The notes below the pieces were generated by a model. It ran no database searches. It was not told the origin of the DNA and saw nothing but the letters and a program-made list of their open reading frames with translations. This document shows, one piece after another, positions 3,158-35,628 of a stretch of 64,000 bases of DNA. A program made the translations under genes and the position numbers. Source of the stretch: Pantoea cypripedii (GTDB taxonomy: Bacteria > Pseudomonadota > Gammaproteobacteria > Enterobacterales > Enterobacteriaceae); contig NZ_MLJI01000001.1 in the NCBI RefSeq assembly GCF_002095535.1, positions 1,973,832-2,037,831 on the forward strand. Direction: 5' to 3'. Numbering within the stretch: position 1 is the stretch's first letter; each line of letters begins with the position of its first letter.

Positions 3158-4021
3158 ATGAGTCAGCAACCCGTAGTCGCGGTATTGGGGCTGGGCGCAA
3201 TGGGCCATGCCTTTGCCGCTAACCTGTTGAAGAAAGGCTTTGTGGTGCAGGGCTGGAACCGCACACGCGCCCGTGGCGAAGATTTAGTGTCTGCCGGACT
3301 GCTCCTGAGTGACAGCGCCGTCCAGGCGGTGGACGGGGCGGACGTGGTGATTGCCATGCTGTCTGACGGTGAGACGACGCTCCAGGTCATCAGTGAAGCG
3401 CAAGGTGCGTTCAATCAGGGTGCCACGCTGTGCCAGATGGGCACCATTGGGGTAGAGGCGACCGATGCGCTGATTGCGCAGCTGGCAGAAGCGCGTCCGG
3501 ATATGGTGTTTATCGATGCGCCGGTTTCCGGCACCAAAGCGCCAGCGGAAAACGCGCAGATTCTGGTGATGGCGAGCGGTGATCAGAGCAAAGCCCAGGC
3601 GGCAGAACAGGTGTTTGCGGCGATTGGCAAGGGCACCCAATGGTTAGGTGCTGCCGGGGCCAGCTCACGCATGAAGCTGGTGGTTAACAGCTGGCTGATT
3701 GGTCTGATGCAGAGCCTGGCGGAAAGTACCCGTCTGGCAGAGCAGTTCGGTTTCAGCACCGACGACCTGTGGAAAGTGCTGGACGGCGGTCCGCTGGCCG
3801 CACCTTACGCCAAAATGAAACTCGGTATGATCGCCAGCGGCGACTTCACTCCGCAAATGCATCTGATCTGGGCGTTGAAAGATGCGCGTCTGGCGCTGGA
3901 TGCCGCCGGTGAGGCAAAACTGCCCGCGCTGGAGAACATCGTGGATGTCTGGCAGCAGGCGGTGGACGCCGGTTATGGCGAACAGGATCTGGCAGCGGTT
4001 TATCAGTTCCTGAAGCCGTAA
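3158..4021 (+). CDS. NAD(P)-dependent oxidoreductase, 3-hydroxyisobutyrate dehydrogenase family
   Basis: The 287-aa protein starts with a Rossmann fold (VAVLGLGAMGHAFAANLLKKG, GxGxMG at residues 9-14). It then carries the family substrate loop (FIDAPVSGTKAPAENAQILVMASG) and the helical C-terminal domain with the catalytic lysine region (RMKLVVNSW). These are hallmarks of the beta-hydroxyacid dehydrogenase family (GarR, GlxR, MmsB and related imine reductases). ATG 3158 is chosen over ATG 3152 because GAAGGG lies 7 bases before it. The AraC gene starts 5 bases after the stop, so the pair may be one unit. Substrate cannot be assigned. Confidence 0.85.
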   Translation: MSQQPVVAVLGLGAMGHAFAANLLKKGFVVQGWNRTRARGEDLVSAGLLLSDSAVQAVDGADVVIAMLSDGETTLQVISEAQGAFNQGATLCQMGTIGVEATDALIAQLAEARPDMVFIDAPVSGTKAPAENAQILVMASGDQSKAQAAEQVFAAIGKGTQWLGAAGASSRMKLVVNSWLIGLMQSLAESTRLAEQFGFSTDDLWKVLDGGPLAAPYAKMKLGMIASGDFTPQMHLIWALKDARLALDAAGEAKLPALENIVDVWQQAVDAGYGEQDLAAVYQFLKP

Positions 4022-4025
4022 TGCG

Positions 4026-4808
4026 ATGACGGCGGTGCTGAACTTCGACTTCACCAGCCGTCCGCTGGTGCCCTATGCCCATGATTATGCCCACGGCGAT
4101 GCAGAGCCGTGGCATTACCATGACTGCGCCCAGCTGATCCACACCCTGAGCGGCGTGGTGAAAGTGGAGACACAGCACGGCAACTGGATTGTGCCGCCCA
4201 GTCGCGGTGTCTGGTTGCCCGCCGGTACGCGGCATGCGTTGCAGATTGTGGGTCAGGTGGCGGCGCGCACGTTGTTTATCGATCCGCTGGCAAGAGCCGA
4301 CCTGCCTGCCAGCTGCCAGGTGGTGCAGATCTCGCCGTTGCTACGTGAACTGATTGTCAGCGCGATTGCCTTGCCTGCAAGTTACTCAGCGGGCAGCCGT
4401 GCCGAGCGGATCTACGAACTGATTCTGGATGAAATCCGGGTGATGGATGTGCTGCCGTTCGGTTTCCCCTGGCCGGAAAGCGCCCGGCTTCTGGCGTTGT
4501 GCCAGCAGATCCAGCAACAACCCGGCGAAAATTGGACGCTGGTACGGGCCGCGGCAGAACTGTGTGTGGCGGAGCGCACCCTGGCGCGCCACTTCAGTCG
4601 CGAAACCGGTTTGCAGTTCAGCGACTGGGTGCGACGGGTGCGCATCAGTGTCGCTTTAACCCGCCTGGCGCAGGGCGACACGGTGCTGGCGGTGGCGCTG
4701 GACCTCGGTTATGACAGCCCCGACGCCTTCAGCGCGATGTTTCGCCGTCTGCTCGGGGTTACGCCAGCGAACTACTTTCCAGCGGCAGAAAAGCGTGGGC
4801 GGCGTTAA
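4026..4808 (+). CDS. AraC family regulator with N-terminal cupin
   Basis: The 260-aa protein has an N-terminal cupin (HYHDCAQLIHTLSG, then PPSRGVWLPAGTRH) and a C-terminal AraC double helix-turn-helix (about residues 160-255; AAAELCVAERTLARHF and ALDLGYDSPDAFSAMFRR). This layout matches AraC cupin regulators such as NimR. It sits 5 bases after the oxidoreductase, which it may control. Its last 50 bases overlap the 3' end of leuA on the other strand, an unusually deep convergent overlap. No strong ribosome binding site precedes the ATG, so translation may depend on the gene before it. Confidence 0.88.
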   Translation: MTAVLNFDFTSRPLVPYAHDYAHGDAEPWHYHDCAQLIHTLSGVVKVETQHGNWIVPPSRGVWLPAGTRHALQIVGQVAARTLFIDPLARADLPASCQVVQISPLLRELIVSAIALPASYSAGSRAERIYELILDEIRVMDVLPFGFPWPESARLLALCQQIQQQPGENWTLVRAAAELCVAERTLARHFSRETGLQFSDWVRRVRISVALTRLAQGDTVLAVALDLGYDSPDAFSAMFRRLLGVTPANYFPAAEKRGRR

Positions 4809-6444
4809 GCAGCGCCTGTAACGAGGCGCGCGCCACGTCATTGTCGATACCCACACCCCAGGCGCGCTCGCCACGACTATTCACACAACTGAGGTAGGTG
4901 ACGGAGCGACTGTCACTGCGTTTGCCCAGGGTGTGTTCATGATAATCCTCAATACTCAGCGTCAGGCCATAGCGCTGGCGTAAGGCGGTGACCGCTGCGG
5001 ACAGCAACCCGTTGCCTTTGCCTTCCAGACTGACCTGCTGTGTCCCTTGCTGCAGCCGGGCTTTCAGGCGCGTTTCCCCTTTCTCATCGCTATGACTTTC
5101 TGCTTCCAGCAATCGTCGCGCTGGTTGCGTCAGGCCGTAGTGTTCGCAAAACAGTTGCCACAACGCGTGGTGGGTCATCTCCTGACCATGCGCATCGGTC
5201 TGCTGCTGCACGATGCGGCTGAAGTCCTGTTGCAGGCCGCGCGGCAATTGCAGGCCGTGGTTCTGCTCCAGCAGCCAGGCGGCACCGCCTTTGCCGGATT
5301 GGCTGTTAACGCGGATCACTGCTTCATAGCTGCAACCGATATCCGCCGGATCGAGCGGCAGATACGGCATTTGCCAGATTGTTTCTTCACGTTCAGCACG
5401 CTCGGCAAACCCTTTGCGAATCGCATCCTGATGCGAGCCGGAGAACGCGGTAAACACCAGCTCACCGGCATAAGGGTGGCGTGGATGCACCGGCAACTGG
5501 TTACAGCGCGTCACCACTTCCAGCACTTGCTGGATATCGCTGAAATCGAGCTGCGGGGCCACTCCCTGGGTATAGAGATTCAGCGCCAGCGTGACGATGT
5601 CCACGTTACCGGTGCGTTCACCGTTACCGAACAGGCAGCCTTCAACCCGATTGGCACCGGCCAGCAAAGCCAGCTCGGCGCAGGCGATGCCGGTGCCGCG
5701 ATCGTTATGCGGATGCACGCTGATGCTCACCTGCGCGCGCTGGCTGAAGTGGCGGCAGAAATATTCAATCTGGTCGGCATAGACATTCGGCGTATTCACT
5801 TCAACGGTCGCGGGCAGGTTGATGATCATCGGGCGTTGCGCACCAGGTTGCCAGATGGCCGCCACCGCTTCACAAATCTCCAGCGCGAATTCCGGTTCGG
5901 TAAAGCAGAAGGTTTCCGGCGAATACTGGAAGGTCCATGCGGTGTCCGGCTGGCTTTCACAGCGGGCGCGGATCTGGCGTGCACCGGCGCAGGCCAGTTC
6001 AATAATCTCCGCTTTGCTCTGGCGAAACACGCGCTCACGAAACAGCGGGGCGGTGGCGTTGTACAGATGGACGATGGCACGCGGTGCGCCGCGCAGCGCG
6101 GCAAACGTCCGGTCGATCAGATCGGCGCGTGCCTGGGTCAGTACCTGAATCGCGACATCGTCAGGGATGTGGCGCTGTTCAATCAGCAGGCGCACAAAGT
6201 CGAAGTCAGTTTGCGAGGCGGCAGGAAAGGCCACTTCAATCTCTTTAAATCCGCAGCGCACCAGCAGTTGCCAGAACTCCAGTTTGCGTGCGCTGTCCAT
6301 CGGCGTCGCCAGGGCCTGATTGCCGTCGCGCAGATCAGTGGAAAGCCAGCGCGGTGCCTGGGTCAACTGGCGTGATGGCCACTGGCGTTCCGGCAGGTCA
6401 ATCACCGGGTAAGGACGATATTTTTCAGCGGGTTGGGTAAGCAT
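4759..6444 (-). CDS. leuA: 2-isopropylmalate synthase, long type
   Basis: LeuA condenses acetyl-CoA with 2-oxoisovalerate, the first step of leucine synthesis in the cytoplasm. The 561-aa protein carries the synthase signature LRDGNQA early (STDLRDGNQALATPMD), the HxH metal motif (SVHPHNDRGTG) and the GNGERTGNVD motif. A C-terminal LeuA allosteric domain is likely (GNGLLSAAVTALRQRYG, VTYLSCVNSRGERAWGVG). The N-terminus (KYRPYPVIDLPERQWPS) is that of the longer LeuA form known from actinobacteria, not the about 520-aa E. coli form. AAGGAG precedes ATG 6444. No leuBCD follows, and I see no leucine-codon leader peptide in the 130 bases upstream. Confidence 0.9.
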   Translation of the reverse strand: MLTQPAEKYRPYPVIDLPERQWPSRQLTQAPRWLSTDLRDGNQALATPMDSARKLEFWQLLVRCGFKEIEVAFPAASQTDFDFVRLLIEQRHIPDDVAIQVLTQARADLIDRTFAALRGAPRAIVHLYNATAPLFRERVFRQSKAEIIELACAGARQIRARCESQPDTAWTFQYSPETFCFTEPEFALEICEAVAAIWQPGAQRPMIINLPATVEVNTPNVYADQIEYFCRHFSQRAQVSISVHPHNDRGTGIACAELALLAGANRVEGCLFGNGERTGNVDIVTLALNLYTQGVAPQLDFSDIQQVLEVVTRCNQLPVHPRHPYAGELVFTAFSGSHQDAIRKGFAERAEREETIWQMPYLPLDPADIGCSYEAVIRVNSQSGKGGAAWLLEQNHGLQLPRGLQQDFSRIVQQQTDAHGQEMTHHALWQLFCEHYGLTQPARRLLEAESHSDEKGETRLKARLQQGTQQVSLEGKGNGLLSAAVTALRQRYGLTLSIEDYHEHTLGKRSDSRSVTYLSCVNSRGERAWGVGIDNDVARASLQALLNAAHAFLPLESSSLA

Positions 6445-32726: not shown

Positions 32727-33841
32727 ATGAAGAAATGGATGTTAGCGCTGGGGTTGCTGACGGTTGCCTGTGGTGCATCCGCCAAAGTCATTACCGATGT
32801 GGCCGGGCGGCAGGTCGAGGTGGCACAGGAGTCAAAACGTATCATTCTGGGTGAAGGGCGGCAGATGTACCTGCTGGCAGCCTTCGACACCCAGGCACCG
32901 TTCCAGCGTGTGGTTGGCTGGCGTGATGATTTCCACAAAGCGGATTATGACGGTTATATGGCGTATGAAAAACGTTATCCGCAGATTAAGCAGTTGCCGA
33001 CCTTTGGCGGAGCCAAAGATGGCACCTTTAATGTCGAGCAGGCGCTGACGCTGAAACCCGATTTGGTGCTGATGAACCTCGAATCAAAGCGGCGACTGAC
33101 GAAGGTAAATTGATCGAGAAGTTGCAGGCGGTGGGGATTCCGGTGGTGTTTATCGATTTCCGCGAGAAACCGATGGAACATGCCGAGCAAAGCATCCGCA
33201 TTATGGGCGAACTGGTTAACAATCCGCAGCGCGCAGAGGAGATTATTGCGTTTCGTCGTTCTGCCATTGCCAAAGTGACCGACCGCCTGAAAAATTTTAA
33301 CGGCAAGCAGCCAAAAGTGATGATTGATCGTGCCGGCGGTTATACCGATGAATGCTGCATGTCATTCGGTAACGAAAACTTCGGCCAGATGGTTGAGCTG
33401 GCGGGGGGAAGGAATATCGCGAAGGATCTGATCCCAGGTACCTTCGGTACCCTGAATCCGGAGCAGATTATTGCCAGCCAGCCGGATGTGGTGGTGGTCA
33501 CCGGCGCGAACTGGAAAAACTACAACACCGTCGGTAAATGGGTCGGCGTGGGACCGGGTGCCGATACCCAGGAGGCCGAAGCGCGCCTGCGTACCCTGAT
33601 GATGCGTGATGCGTTTAAAACCCTGCCGGTGGCGCATAACGGCAATGCCCACGCGATCTGGCATCAGTTCTACGACAGCCCGTATCAGTTTGTCGCCATT
33701 CAGGCGCTGGCAAAATGGCTGCACCCGGAATTGTTCGCTGATCTCGATCCGGATGCCACTTTCCGCGCGTTCCATGAAAAATTCCTGCCGCTGCCTTATC
33801 AGCCAGGTTACTGGGTGACACTGCCAGCGGATCGTTCCTGA
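32727..33841 (+). pseudogene. Iron-type ABC substrate-binding protein, frameshifted
   Basis: Two overlapping frames, 32727-33113 and 33110-33841, together encode one periplasmic binding protein (PF01497 type) of about 370 aa. The first has a signal peptide (KKWMLALGLLTVACGASA) and the start of the domain (ITDVAGRQVEV, PDLVLMNLES). The second carries the rest (IPVVFIDFREKP, NPEQIIASQPDVVVVTGA). Restoring one base near 33085-33089 (in GAATCAAAGCGGCG) rejoins them, reading ESKAATDEGKLIEKL. No permease or ATPase gene is next to it. A Fur box precedes it and a terminator follows. A true mutation or a sequencing error cannot be separated here. Confidence 0.8.
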
Positions 33842-33854
33842 TAAATCGCAGGCA

Positions 33855-33950
33855 ATAAAAAAGGATTTGGCAGCAACGCCAAATCCTTTTTTTCTGTTCA
33901 CACATCGGCTGGTAACCGGGTGTTGAACGGGGTGCTCAGCACTCCTCACA
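33855..33950 (-). ncRNA. istR: IstR-like antisense RNA (antitoxin of tisB)
   Basis: A reverse-strand promoter (TTGAAA-N17-TATGAT) predicts a start at about 33950 and the strong hairpin at 33861-33888 gives an end near 33855, about 96 nt. The RNA would begin with TGTGAGGAGTGCTGAGC, which is perfectly complementary over 17 nt to 34129-34145 in the leader of the 29-aa toxin gene. In E. coli, IstR-1 is transcribed divergently next to tisB, is made constitutively, and pairs through its 5' part with the tisB leader to block a ribosome standby site. The layout here is the same. The 5' and 3' ends are predictions. Confidence 0.8.
33857..33894. terminator. Bidirectional terminator
   Basis: AAGGATTTGGC (33861-33871), loop AGCAAC, GCCAAATCCTT (33878-33888): an 11-bp perfect stem with T runs on both strands. 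It ends the binding-protein gene from the left and the proposed istR RNA from the right. Confidence 0.92.
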
Positions 33951-33956
33951 AAACGA

Positions 33957-33985
33957 ATCATAAAATGTGCAGAGAAAGATTTCAA
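33957..33985 (-). promoter_or_regulatory. Sigma70 promoter of the istR-like RNA
   Basis: On the reverse strand TTGAAA (33980-33985) and TATGAT (33957-33962) are exactly 17 bp apart. No LexA box overlaps it, which fits constant synthesis of an antitoxin RNA. Confidence 0.75.
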
Positions 33986-33997
33986 GTTTGGCTCAAC

Positions 33998-34017
33998 TAC
34001 TGTATGGTTGTACAGGT
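33998..34017 (+). promoter_or_regulatory. LexA box of the tisB promoter
   Basis: CTGTATGGTTGTACAG at 34000-34015 follows the CTG-N10-CAG rule with a strong palindrome. It lies about 208 bases before the tisB start, as expected for a long regulatory leader, and should make toxin synthesis SOS-dependent. Confidence 0.85.
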
Positions 34018-34128
34018 GTTGAGTGTCGGGCGTCGCTTCATTGTTTTCTGATGACTCCCAGGGGCGCGGATTGTCAAATCCCGGCAGGTACCAGGTGGTG
34101 CTGGCCTGTGGCTTTCACAATGAGCGTC

Positions 34129-34145
34129 GCTCAGCACTCCTCACA
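34129..34145 (+). promoter_or_regulatory. IstR pairing site in the tisB leader
   Basis: GCTCAGCACTCCTCACA here is an exact copy of 33934-33950. Because the first copy lies in the divergently transcribed RNA, the two transcripts are complementary. It sits 80-96 nt before the tisB ATG, close to the standby site position known in E. coli. Confidence 0.8.
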
Positions 34146-34224
34146 GATGTGCTCAGGCGTTCGGCGGGTGGAGTCAAAGTCCCGGATGCCGGAAGGCGCG
34201 CTCCTGCAGAGGAGAAGGAAAGTG

Positions 34225-34314
34225 ATGGAACTGATTAGATTGCTGCTGGATTTAGTCCGCGTCATCTTGCAGATCATCGTTGCCCTTTTGCAACTGACCG
34301 GTCAGGCACACTGA
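34225..34314 (+). CDS. tisB: TisB-like SOS-induced membrane toxin peptide
   Basis: The 29-aa peptide MELIRLLLDLVRVILQIIVA, continuing LLQLTGQAH, is a hydrophobic amphipathic helix. E. coli TisB is also 29 aa and contains ILKLIVAALQL; here ILQIIVALLQL matches it at 8 of 11 positions. TisB inserts in the inner membrane, lowers the proton motive force and promotes persistence after DNA damage. GGAGAAGGAAAGTG is the ribosome binding site. A LexA box, a long leader with an antisense pairing site and a downstream terminator complete the unit. The gene is shorter than usual gene-finder limits. Confidence 0.82.
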   Translation: MELIRLLLDLVRVILQIIVALLQLTGQAH

Positions 34315-34328
34315 TCGGAACTTGAATC

Positions 34329-34357
34329 AAGGCGGAGCTAACCACTCCGCCTTTTTT
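34329..34357. terminator. Rho-independent terminator after tisB
   Basis: AAGGCGGAG, loop, CTCCGCCTT followed by six T in all. It ends tisB and, read from the other side, may also end the amidase operon. Confidence 0.9.
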
Positions 34358-34362
34358 CGTGG

Positions 34363-35628
34363 CTACGCCAGCAGGGCGGCGGCGGCCAGCAACCGGCGGT
34401 CGTCGCCTGCGGCAAATTGCAGTTCGATCCCGACCGGAATGCCATCCGGCGTTTGCGCCAGCGGCAGGCTGATACCCGGCAGGCCCACCACGGTTGCCGG
34501 TTCGCAATTGGCAATCAATTGACGAAACAGCGCGTTGGCCTGTGCAATCAGTGGTGGCAGCAACGGCACGCTGGGAAAGATCAGGCCATCGAGCTGATGC
34601 TGATGAAAAACCGCCTGATAGCGTGCGGTGAGCAACGGTTTCCAGTGGTTTACGGCTTCCTGATATTGTTCAGCGCTGACGGTGGCGGCATCCGCCAGCA
34701 ACGCCTGCACATCCGGGCTTTTCACCGCCTGCTTAAGTTGCTCAAAAGTAAACTGGCTGCCGCGCTGTTGCAGATAATGTGGCAGATCGCGCAGCATTTC
34801 ATAGGAAGCCATTGGATAGCCGGCTTTCACCGCCAGTTCCGCCACGTCGGCGATTTCCACCTCAATCAGCGTCACGCCGCGTTCGCGCAGGCGCTGCAAT
34901 ACCGGCTCCGCTGCCTGCACCACCGCAGTTTCACAACCGGACCAGAAATGCGCGCGCGGTATCCCCAGGCGCAAACCATCAAGCGCCACCGTGGGCAGTT
35001 CGGACTCACCGCTAATGGCGGCATCGAGCGCGATCACCTCGTCGATGTGTTGCGCCAGAATTCCAGCGGTATCGCGGCTGACCGAAATGGGCGCGATACC
35101 CTGTTGCGGATAACGCAACAGCGAAGGGCGAAAACCGATCAAACCACAAAATGAAGCGGGCAGCCGGACAGAGGCCCCGGTATCGGTGCCGATACTGGCA
35201 GGGACGATCCCCGCCGCCACGGCCGCCGCGCTGCCGCTGGAGGATCCCCCCACCACGCGTCCGCAGAGAAACGGATGCAGCACATCCCCCTGAGCCACGT
35301 TCAGCCCGCTGGTGCCGGAAGCCAGCTCATGCATACTGGCTTTACCGATAATAATGGCCCCAGCCTGTTGCAGGCGGGTGATGATTTCAGCATTACGGCC
35401 GACGATTTCTTCCGCCAGTAACGCGGTGCCGATGCTGGTCGGCATCCCCGCCACATCAATATTGTCTTTGACCACCAGAGGCAAACCGGCGAGCGGTGCT
35501 GTGCCGGTGCTTAACGCGGCAGCCGCTGCCAAAGCAGGCTCCGTCGCCAGCCAGCTCAGGCTATTAAGATGGCGTTGTTTATAAGCCTGCAACAACGCCC
35601 GATGCAGTCGTTCACCGGATTGCGCCAT
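34363..35628 (-). CDS. Amidase signature family hydrolase
   Basis: The 421-aa enzyme has the Ser-cisSer-Lys triad: Lys54 in PLVVKDNIDVAG, the Gly/Ser-rich stretch GGSSSGSAAA at 127-136 and nucleophile Ser153 in GTDTGASVRLPAS. It hydrolyses a carboxamide to acid and ammonia. It is the last gene of the left arm of the GntR island and follows the dioxygenase gene by 3 bases. Substrate unknown; GatA can be excluded because it is shorter and alone. Confidence 0.88.
   Translation of the reverse strand: MAQSGERLHRALLQAYKQRHLNSLSWLATEPALAAAAALSTGTAPLAGLPLVVKDNIDVAGMPTSIGTALLAEEIVGRNAEIITRLQQAGAIIIGKASMHELASGTSGLNVAQGDVLHPFLCGRVVGGSSSGSAAAVAAGIVPASIGTDTGASVRLPASFCGLIGFRPSLLRYPQQGIAPISVSRDTAGILAQHIDEVIALDAAISGESELPTVALDGLRLGIPRAHFWSGCETAVVQAAEPVLQRLRERGVTLIEVEIADVAELAVKAGYPMASYEMLRDLPHYLQQRGSQFTFEQLKQAVKSPDVQALLADAATVSAEQYQEAVNHWKPLLTARYQAVFHQHQLDGLIFPSVPLLPPLIAQANALFRQLIANCEPATVVGLPGISLPLAQTPDGIPVGIELQFAAGDDRRLLAAAALLA

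Follow-up and report, generated by a model that had tools for sequence, protein, structure and literature searches.

The closest described relative of the locus analysed here is tisB/istR-1 of Escherichia coli K-12 (L061), which lies between ivbL and emrD and combines a LexA box, a 29-aa peptide, a long leader and a sequestered SD with an sRNA whose 5' end pairs far upstream on the toxin mRNA; it supplies our model of mechanism (PMC7708055 and PMC4147584, from their available text). A second SOS system, dinQ/agrB (L062), likewise joins a LexA-controlled short membrane peptide to a divergent antitoxin RNA (PMC4147584, same portion of text), but shows weaker peptide similarity and has two tandem antitoxin genes, agrA/agrB. 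Far-upstream antitoxin pairing and a predicted pseudoknot also occur, by description, in shoB/ohsC and zor/orz, which the available part of PMC7708055 nonetheless describes as non-homologous.

Here we describe a segment of the Pantoea cypripedii genome that is very probably a chromosomal type I toxin-antitoxin locus of the TisB/IstR kind. It shares with tisB/istR-1 the elements listed above as well as the register of stem 2 in the leader and the CGGTTACCAGCCG body of the sRNA. It differs in lying elsewhere, in its shorter interpromoter region and different seed, and in a peptide that has Gln for K12, ends in another C-terminus and is missed by Pfam and Rfam.

Locus layout and conservation in Pantoea

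The window, a 64,000-nucleotide stretch of contig NZ_MLJI01000001.1, holds the locus at 33855-34357 (Table 1). The 207-nt leader length given by a first, sequence-only reading depends on the inferred start site, and the 29-aa peptide is listed among the open reading frames as the end of longer frames, its ATG having been read from the sequence.

Table 1. Features of the Pantoea locus, in window coordinates.
Feature	Position	Strand	Basis
Antitoxin RNA intrinsic terminator	33857..33886	-	9-bp stem, T run on minus strand; stem in 50/50 distinct rows
IstR-like antitoxin sRNA, about 94-97 nt	33857..33950	-	has CGGTTACCAGCCG; 5' end inferred from promoter
Antitoxin seed, about first 17 nt of sRNA	33934..33950	-	exact complement of 34129-34145; covaries in 55 genomes
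Antitoxin sigma70-type promoter TTGAAA-N17-TATGAT	33957..33985	-	pattern scan and 55 copies
LexA box CTGTATGGTTGTACAG over inferred toxin promoter	34000..34015	.	strict pattern CTGTATNNNNNTACAG and conservation
Toxin mRNA leader, inferred start	34020..34224	+	sequence and analogy with E. coli tisB
Standby 5' structure	34078..34109	+	compensatory changes, 28 distinct sequences, E. coli to plasmids
Upstream CCC, able to pair with GGUGG loop (pseudoknot)	34080-34082	+	part of standby 5' structure
Helix A	34085-34089/34104-34108	+	part of standby 5' structure
Inner helix	34092-34094/34101-34103	+	part of standby 5' structure
Antitoxin target, 80-96 nt before ATG	34129..34145	+	exact match to seed, covariation
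SD-sequestering hairpin CTCCT-GCAG-AGGAG	34201..34214	+	RNAalifold consensus fold
TisB-like 29-aa membrane peptide MELIRLLLDLVRVILQIIVALLQLTGQAH	34225..34314	+	ORF list, ATG by direct reading
Toxin mRNA terminator	34329..34358	+	pattern scan (not above chance); conserved in 55-copy alignment

The search for relatives that the sequence-only reading had proposed recovered the segment, at the DNA level and among 147 genomes, from 55 of 61 Pantoea genomes and from 0 of 86 genomes outside the genus. Four of the six Pantoea genomes without the locus are small (1.4-2.9 Mb, one only 74% complete) and two are normal-sized, and none of the six gives a peptide match by profile either. A further genome scan gave 36 loci. 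Pantoea accounts for nearly all of them; a few carry the label Erwinia, Enterobacter or Enterobacteriaceae bacterium, and one is from Chimaeribacter. The last of these (L145) is a further locus of intermediate appearance.

Across the alignment of 55 copies the sRNA, LexA box, leader and toxin frame are highly conserved, and conservation drops at both terminators. Of the 55 copies, 7 were found to have the periplasmic binding protein gene upstream and 4 the amidase gene downstream, both of them lower bounds because 30 loci had 1.5-kb flanks and 25 only 0.5 kb; on these counts the segment has been retained and the genes around it mostly have not. That reading had also staked itself on the antitoxin complementarity and the peptide frame lasting in close relatives, and both are kept in Pantoea. 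Judged by these comparisons, the segment is a real, selected and diverged branch of the TisB/IstR kind. In the window itself, the gene upstream, for the periplasmic binding protein, takes the form of two overlapping frames (32727-33113 and 33110-33841), as if split by a frameshift, and only the second matches Peripla_BP_2.

The putative antitoxin RNA and its pairing with the leader

The 17-nt complementarity between the sRNA 5' end and the leader, claimed in the earlier reading, is exact and lies beyond the longest repeat, 14 nt, found in 1000 dinucleotide shuffles of 33855-34357; the duplex energy that the same reading proposed to calculate comes to a predicted -36.9 kcal/mol. Over these 17 positions in 55 genomes, 912 of 933 cells hold standard pairs, 902 being Watson-Crick; none of 173 control placements exceeds a paired fraction of 0.66. 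Changes on both sides of a pair are seen at 33941 (1 genome), 33942 (2 genomes), 33945 (three pair types, in 26, 26 and 3 genomes) and 33946 (29 versus 26 genomes), these being counts of genomes and not of independent events on a tree; the mid-duplex pair 33941/34136 is mismatched in 20 of the 55. Cognate seeds and targets pair at a mean of 16.6/17 positions and non-cognate ones at 15.9/17, an almost equal value within the genus because Pantoea seeds differ little. By this comparison the sRNA-target pairing is under selection, and as in TisB/IstR systems the 5' end of the putative sRNA can pair with the leader far upstream of the ribosome binding site.

The minus-strand promoter reported from the sequence alone is the sole promoter-like site in 33500-34800 and is kept in relatives. 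The pattern on its own is weak, since shuffles hold 0.5 such sites on average; across the 55 copies its -35 is TTGAAA in 51, and its -10 takes the forms TATGAT, TACAAT, TAGAAT, TATTAT, TATCAT and TACACT, all six of which we judge promoter-like. The earlier reading also named two terminators. The toxin terminator was the one site found by the pattern scan, which alone proves nothing because shuffles average 1.5 terminator-like sites, and the sRNA terminator went unlisted by the scan, its stem being kept throughout (Table 1). For promoter and terminators alike the patterns are near chance alone, and it is conservation that counts. The body of the sRNA provides a link to E. coli: CGGTTACCAGCCG is an exact 13-mer common to the Pantoea sRNA and IstR-1, a match reached in 0 of 1000 shuffles, and variants of it were seen by eye in most of the 25 sRNAs listed, though L063, L087 and L089 lack it. 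By sequence and conservation, the locus carries a putative divergent sRNA gene with a promoter and terminator of its own, in keeping with the TisB/IstR plan.

Predicted structure of the toxin mRNA leader

Leader positions are numbered relative to a GGTGG motif, the anchor, which is at 34094 in the window. Compensatory mutations back stem 2 of the tisB pseudoknot in E. coli according to the available text of PMC7708055, which gives it as 53-57 with 73-77; the mutants described there fit 54-58 with 73-77, the register used here. Positions -9..-5 and +10..+14 from the anchor correspond to this stem, whose arms read GCUGA/UCAGC in E. coli, CAGGY/RCCUG in Pantoea, and CCGGA/UCCGG, UCAGA/UCUGA or UUGGA/UCCGA on plasmids. 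The anchor is present in 87 of 89 loci, and stem 2 forms 5/5 pairs in 79, 4/5 in five and 3/5 in one; in L091 and L092 it forms 5/5 only in a 2-nt shorter register, which is our own reading of those sequences, and RNAfold gives one 8-bp hairpin in both. The stem-2 and duplex sets leave out two of the 89 loci, L003 (one changed anchor base) and L069 (decayed). The standby hairpin of L091 and L092 is without the 2-nt bulge.

Sliding the partner arm by 1-3 nt lowers the standard pairs of stem 2 from 96% to 14-48% (20 distinct sequences). Arms swapped between lineages form a mean of 3.1/5 pairs, with 13 of 110 swaps reaching 5/5, against 3-5 for cognate arms; the arms alone are short, so the case rests on the fixed register too. 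Taken together, the comparison indicates that compensatory changes have preserved stem 2 of the tisB pseudoknot without shifting its register.

Inside stem 2, an inner helix of -2/+9, -1/+8 and 0/+7 is possible in 28 of 28 distinct sequences, with -1/+8 being A-U in 15 and G-C in 13. The published stem 1, represented in the test by four inner pairs, is kept only in part: among the inner pairs derived for the E. coli model, -11/-1 is standard in 9 of 28 sequences and -10/-2 in 22 of 28. Upstream, pairing of CC(C/U) (-14..-12) with the GGUGG loop is possible in 28, 27 and 28 of 28 sequences at the three successive positions, and farther out -15 and -16 pair in 20 and 23 of 28. These 28-row counts exclude L091 and L092 for their shorter register and include L003 and L145, added by hand, and the invariant pairs of the standby element carry no evidence by themselves. 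On comparative grounds we propose to refine the published structure: the pseudoknot would combine an extended hairpin with a helix between its loop and the upstream segment. As a set, the loci amount to natural compensatory variation for a standby structure that has been studied by mutation in E. coli (PMC7708055, available text).

Closer to the toxin start, CTCCT (34201-34205) pairs with AGGAG (34210-34214) in 47-48 of 48 distinct rows at each of the five positions (RNAalifold), and a like SD hairpin can be seen by eye in E. coli and in several plasmid leaders. The strong ribosome binding site of the sequence-only reading needs correcting: the AGGAG is present but is predicted to be paired. 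The toxin ribosome binding site would be sequestered, as is reported for the SD of E. coli tisB in the accessible part of PMC7708055. When the window leader is folded alone, most target bases are also predicted to be paired, a result at odds with an open standby site, the E. coli site being reported as single-stranded. Sequence similarity between the Pantoea and E. coli leaders is no greater than that of shuffles, so homology is argued from position, from pairing, from the core of the peptide and from the 13-mer in the sRNA.

LexA box and predicted SOS control

The LexA box named in the earlier reading is in place and kept in relatives. In the 6.55-Mb genome of the strain, matches to the strict pattern CTGTATNNNNNTACAG (9 plus-strand and 7 minus-strand) fall at 11 places, versus 1 for a reversed-pattern control, and the core of the box is 8/8 in 42 of 55 Pantoea copies and 7/8 in 13, two of which reach that value only by gap placement. 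Its spacing is also shared: the box precedes the standby element by 93-95 nt in the four Pantoea copies checked and by 98 nt in E. coli, and in all 13 chromosomal loci examined, that of E. coli among them, a box with an 8/8 core precedes the anchor by 93-100 nt. None was found in the 12 plasmid loci examined, where the closest match lying between seed and anchor reaches 4-7/8, at scattered places; this distance comparison covers 25 of 87 loci, of which 13 are chromosomal and 12 on plasmids, and the remaining 51 Pantoea copies are covered by alignment. The box lies over the putative toxin promoter, and from it we infer SOS induction.

Elsewhere in the window two LexA-like boxes lie 12 bases apart, at 1328-1343 and 1356-1371. 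Next to them are a very short frame on the plus strand and the start of one on the minus strand that continues from 1307 (MSVEVTIAKDF...) and looks phage-tail-like by eye.

Relatives on plasmids

Secondary matches on other contigs of five same-genus genomes led to a family of loci on plasmids. Among 72,556 plasmid records, 30 match at E <= 1e-5, six of them over 80% of the query; they come from Providencia (11), Pantoea (6), Klebsiella (4), Erwinia (3) and Serratia (2), with one each from Mixta, Proteus, Citrobacter and Escherichia. A peptide query returned 27 plasmid records at E <= 1, and 0 of 50,697 phages match either query. The plasmid loci taken were 13 of the 30 records and the five same-genus contigs, four of which were taken as plasmid-like without proof; the weakest plasmid match (L075, 14% of the query) was left out of the 89 loci.

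These relatives (Rts1, L063; Klebsiella, L064 and L071; and those of Pantoea, Mixta, Serratia and Erwinia) resemble the chromosomal locus in an IIVx..QLT-type peptide core (IIV...QLT in the loci read), the standby element with its anchor, the SD hairpin, a terminator and a divergent sRNA gene whose seed fits its own target. They differ in their 31-aa peptide, which starts with GTG wherever it was read, in having no LexA box in the 12 examined and in their other seeds. One plasmid peptide is like the Pantoea peptide at a score reached by 0 of 2000 shuffles; aligned directly with E. coli TisB, the same plasmid-type peptide has a score that 5% of shuffles reach, which is not significant. In six plasmid loci (L056, L058, L060, L064, L065 and L066) a TTGACG-N4-6-CGTCAA-like palindrome lies between the divergent promoters, in the stretch that the LexA box occupies on chromosomes; it is imperfect in L056, and one half is possibly the antitoxin -35. 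The Rts1 match overlaps a hypothetical-protein CDS beside a plasmid SOS inhibition protein A gene. This CDS (WP_172691630.1, 2977-3231 of L063) overlaps leader and toxin on the same strand in another frame and is possibly not a real product.

About ten seed classes can be told apart, some of them partly alike, and each seed matches its own target best or nearly so. In 17 representative loci, and with accessibility ignored throughout, cognate antitoxin-target duplexes are predicted at -30.1 to -50.6 kcal/mol and those between seed classes at -4.3 to -31.0 kcal/mol. The strongest cross pair is the Rts1 antitoxin on a class-A plasmid target (-31.0 kcal/mol); next come class A on class B, with values up to -29.1, and L091 on L092, with -28.2, so the orthogonality of the seeds is graded, not absolute. 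Where one genome holds both a chromosomal and a plasmid-type copy (five genomes), cognate pairs come to -32 to -53 and cross pairs to -9 to -23, and on that account no effective silencing of the plasmid toxin by the host antitoxin is predicted. L091 and L092 are themselves second TisB matches, in genomes G463 and G329, each on the same contig as the first and with its own seed and target.

Decay is seen in places. A query of the Rts1 type finds a relative in 10 of 5,426 E. coli genomes, and the two copies read, in chromosomal islands of SE11 (L107, about 5990-6280) and elppa5 (L108, about 3990-4280), have the target, the SD hairpin and a shortened peptide; we regard these two as relics of the plasmid-type toxin since they are without the antitoxin repeat and the full standby element. 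A locus on a plasmid of Erwinia sp. HDF1-3R (L069, 1500-1800) has lost the standby element and toxin start and looks decayed. It is unlikely, however, that the plasmid relatives at large are passengers or decaying copies in the manner of these three: 16 of 17 plasmid or plasmid-like loci keep the anchor and their own matching seed and target, and most show compensation in stem 2, five loci having 4/5 pairs and one 3/5.

The most likely arrangement, judged from the loci compared, is a diverged, SOS-controlled TisB/IstR branch together with a LexA-free plasmid branch. It is an even call whether TisB/IstR, rather than an oddity of E. coli-type chromosomes, is one arm of a mobile, seed-switching family in which chromosomal copies are under LexA, plasmid copies have no LexA box and carry seeds that resident antitoxins read poorly or not at all, and each new copy is an orthogonal addiction unit; in this family the 5' pseudoknot would be the extended hairpin (helix A and inner C-G, R-Y and G-C pairs) with its GGUGG loop on the upstream CCC, and not the E. 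coli stem 1. The LexA-free copies, the poorly cross-reading seeds and the compensatory evidence on the standby structure add to the interest of the family, and its matched series of seeds and targets allows a test of how antitoxin specificity can change without killing the host.

The putative toxin peptide and the identity of the locus

Of the peptide core, 8 of 11 residues are those of TisB (ILQIIVALLQL against ILKLIVAALQL), just as the sequence-only reading had it, and the score of 46 between the Pantoea peptide and TisB is reached in 0 of 2000 shuffles. The hydrophobic 29-aa frame of that reading likewise endures, its 29 codons running without gap or stop through 55 of 55 copies; the start is ATG in 54 and ATT in L021, and the peptide of L039 has lost its stop and runs 9 residues further. 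With a pN/pS of 0.31 (34 distinct sequences), the peptide is by this measure under purifying selection. From its sequence it would be a short, hydrophobic, amphipathic peptide with the core of TisB. Downstream of the intact locus in L005, at 2056-2146, the toxin frame is repeated in tandem for its 3' half, together with the terminator; this copy looks like a 3' fragment left by duplication, and BLAST gives the same tandem-copy match in L004 (1402-1312).

One residue calls for caution. TisB K12 is essential in E. coli, where K12L abolishes growth inhibition, the evidence in the available text of PMC11449926 being for K12L and not K12Q; its column holds Gln (Q16) in 55 of 55 Pantoea copies, which is our reason for caution about toxicity, and the aligned plasmid peptides have no Lys there. 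This could mean that the RNA regulation is real and the Pantoea peptide is a mild membrane stress peptide rather than a growth-arresting toxin. We consider that improbable, slightly more so than the idea of plasmid passengers, for TisB Q19, also essential in E. coli, is kept as Q23 in 55 of 55 copies, as are E2, R/K5, D/E9 and R12, the last lying one helical turn before the K12 column, and a maintained antitoxin pairing would be pointless for a harmless product.

Far less probable is a locus of the DinQ/AgrB type. DinQ too is a LexA-controlled short membrane peptide with divergent sRNAs (PMC4147584, available text), a 12-residue stretch of the Pantoea peptide resembles it with a score of 36, and the two E. 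coli peptides, TisB and DinQ, reach 46 against each other, so peptides alone separate the two poorly. The DinQ score, however, is reached in 4.7% of shuffles and the TisB score in 0 of 2000, and the IstR-1 13-mer and stem-2 register match tisB/istR, in a comparison where that was the only E. coli system. Just as remote is the thought that the 17-nt repeats are alike by chance or by gene conversion, which can homogenise short direct repeats, since the repeat flanks differ, G-U replaces Watson-Crick pairs in 10 cells, and other loci have other seeds (about ten classes), each fitting its own target best or nearly so. The TisB/IstR identity is preferred, and the plan first read from the sequence is borne out by seed/target covariation, LexA spacing, stem 2, the sequestered ribosome binding site and the IstR-1 13-mer.

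Under this TisB/IstR reading, LexA would repress transcription from the toxin promoter and DNA damage would release it. With the SD of the toxin mRNA locked in its hairpin, ribosomes would first bind a far-upstream standby site, which adjoins the conserved pseudoknot-like structure; that structure is drawn from comparison, its function from E. coli. The first 17 nt of the divergent sRNA, whose pairing is backed by covariation, would anneal just downstream of the standby structure and, if the E. coli model holds, block standby and hence translation, RNase III probably cleaving the sRNA/mRNA duplex. Upon damage the mRNA would rise above the sRNA and the 29-aa amphipathic peptide would be made, enter the inner membrane, depolarise it and arrest growth, and may in this way serve persistence. 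The plasmid relatives, with the same RNA machinery, no LexA box and other seeds, would fit plasmid-maintenance modules immune to the host antitoxin.

Detection and taxonomic range

Open-licence literature yielded no tisB/istR in Pantoea and no TisB-like plasmid type I toxin-antitoxin, an earlier report elsewhere being possible in either case; in the passages of one paper that names both TisB and Pantoea, the mentions are unrelated. Such loci are easily missed, as the sequence-only reading remarked, because the peptide has 29-31 aa and Pfam, NCBIfam and Rfam are all blind to the locus in the window. Rfam istR (RF01400) finds nothing in the window, where permissive E-values brought up only chance-like matches to unrelated sRNAs. 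Among the loci submitted it matches E. coli L061, L079 and L083 only, missing three Pantoea and five plasmid loci and also the enterobacterial tisB loci L087, L089, L091 and L092. Pfam TisB (PF13939) gives 0 matches for the window peptide, no match for the four plasmid peptides submitted and, at best, 12 bits against a cut-off of 25 for three other Pantoea peptides.

TisB was stated in 2024 to be found only in Enterobacteriaceae (PMC11449926, available text). A genus-wide relative in Pantoea, Erwiniaceae by record taxonomy, would widen that range, and the plasmid relatives reach Proteus/Providencia, Serratia and Klebsiella. Across the genomes of the order, PF13939 matches 15 of 394, 14 of them over the cut-off and in 8 of 114 genera, with none of the four own-genus genomes among the 394 and 0 of 14 control genomes matching. 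A profile built from the Pantoea and plasmid peptides together with TisB matches 14 of the 394, including all four of the own genus.
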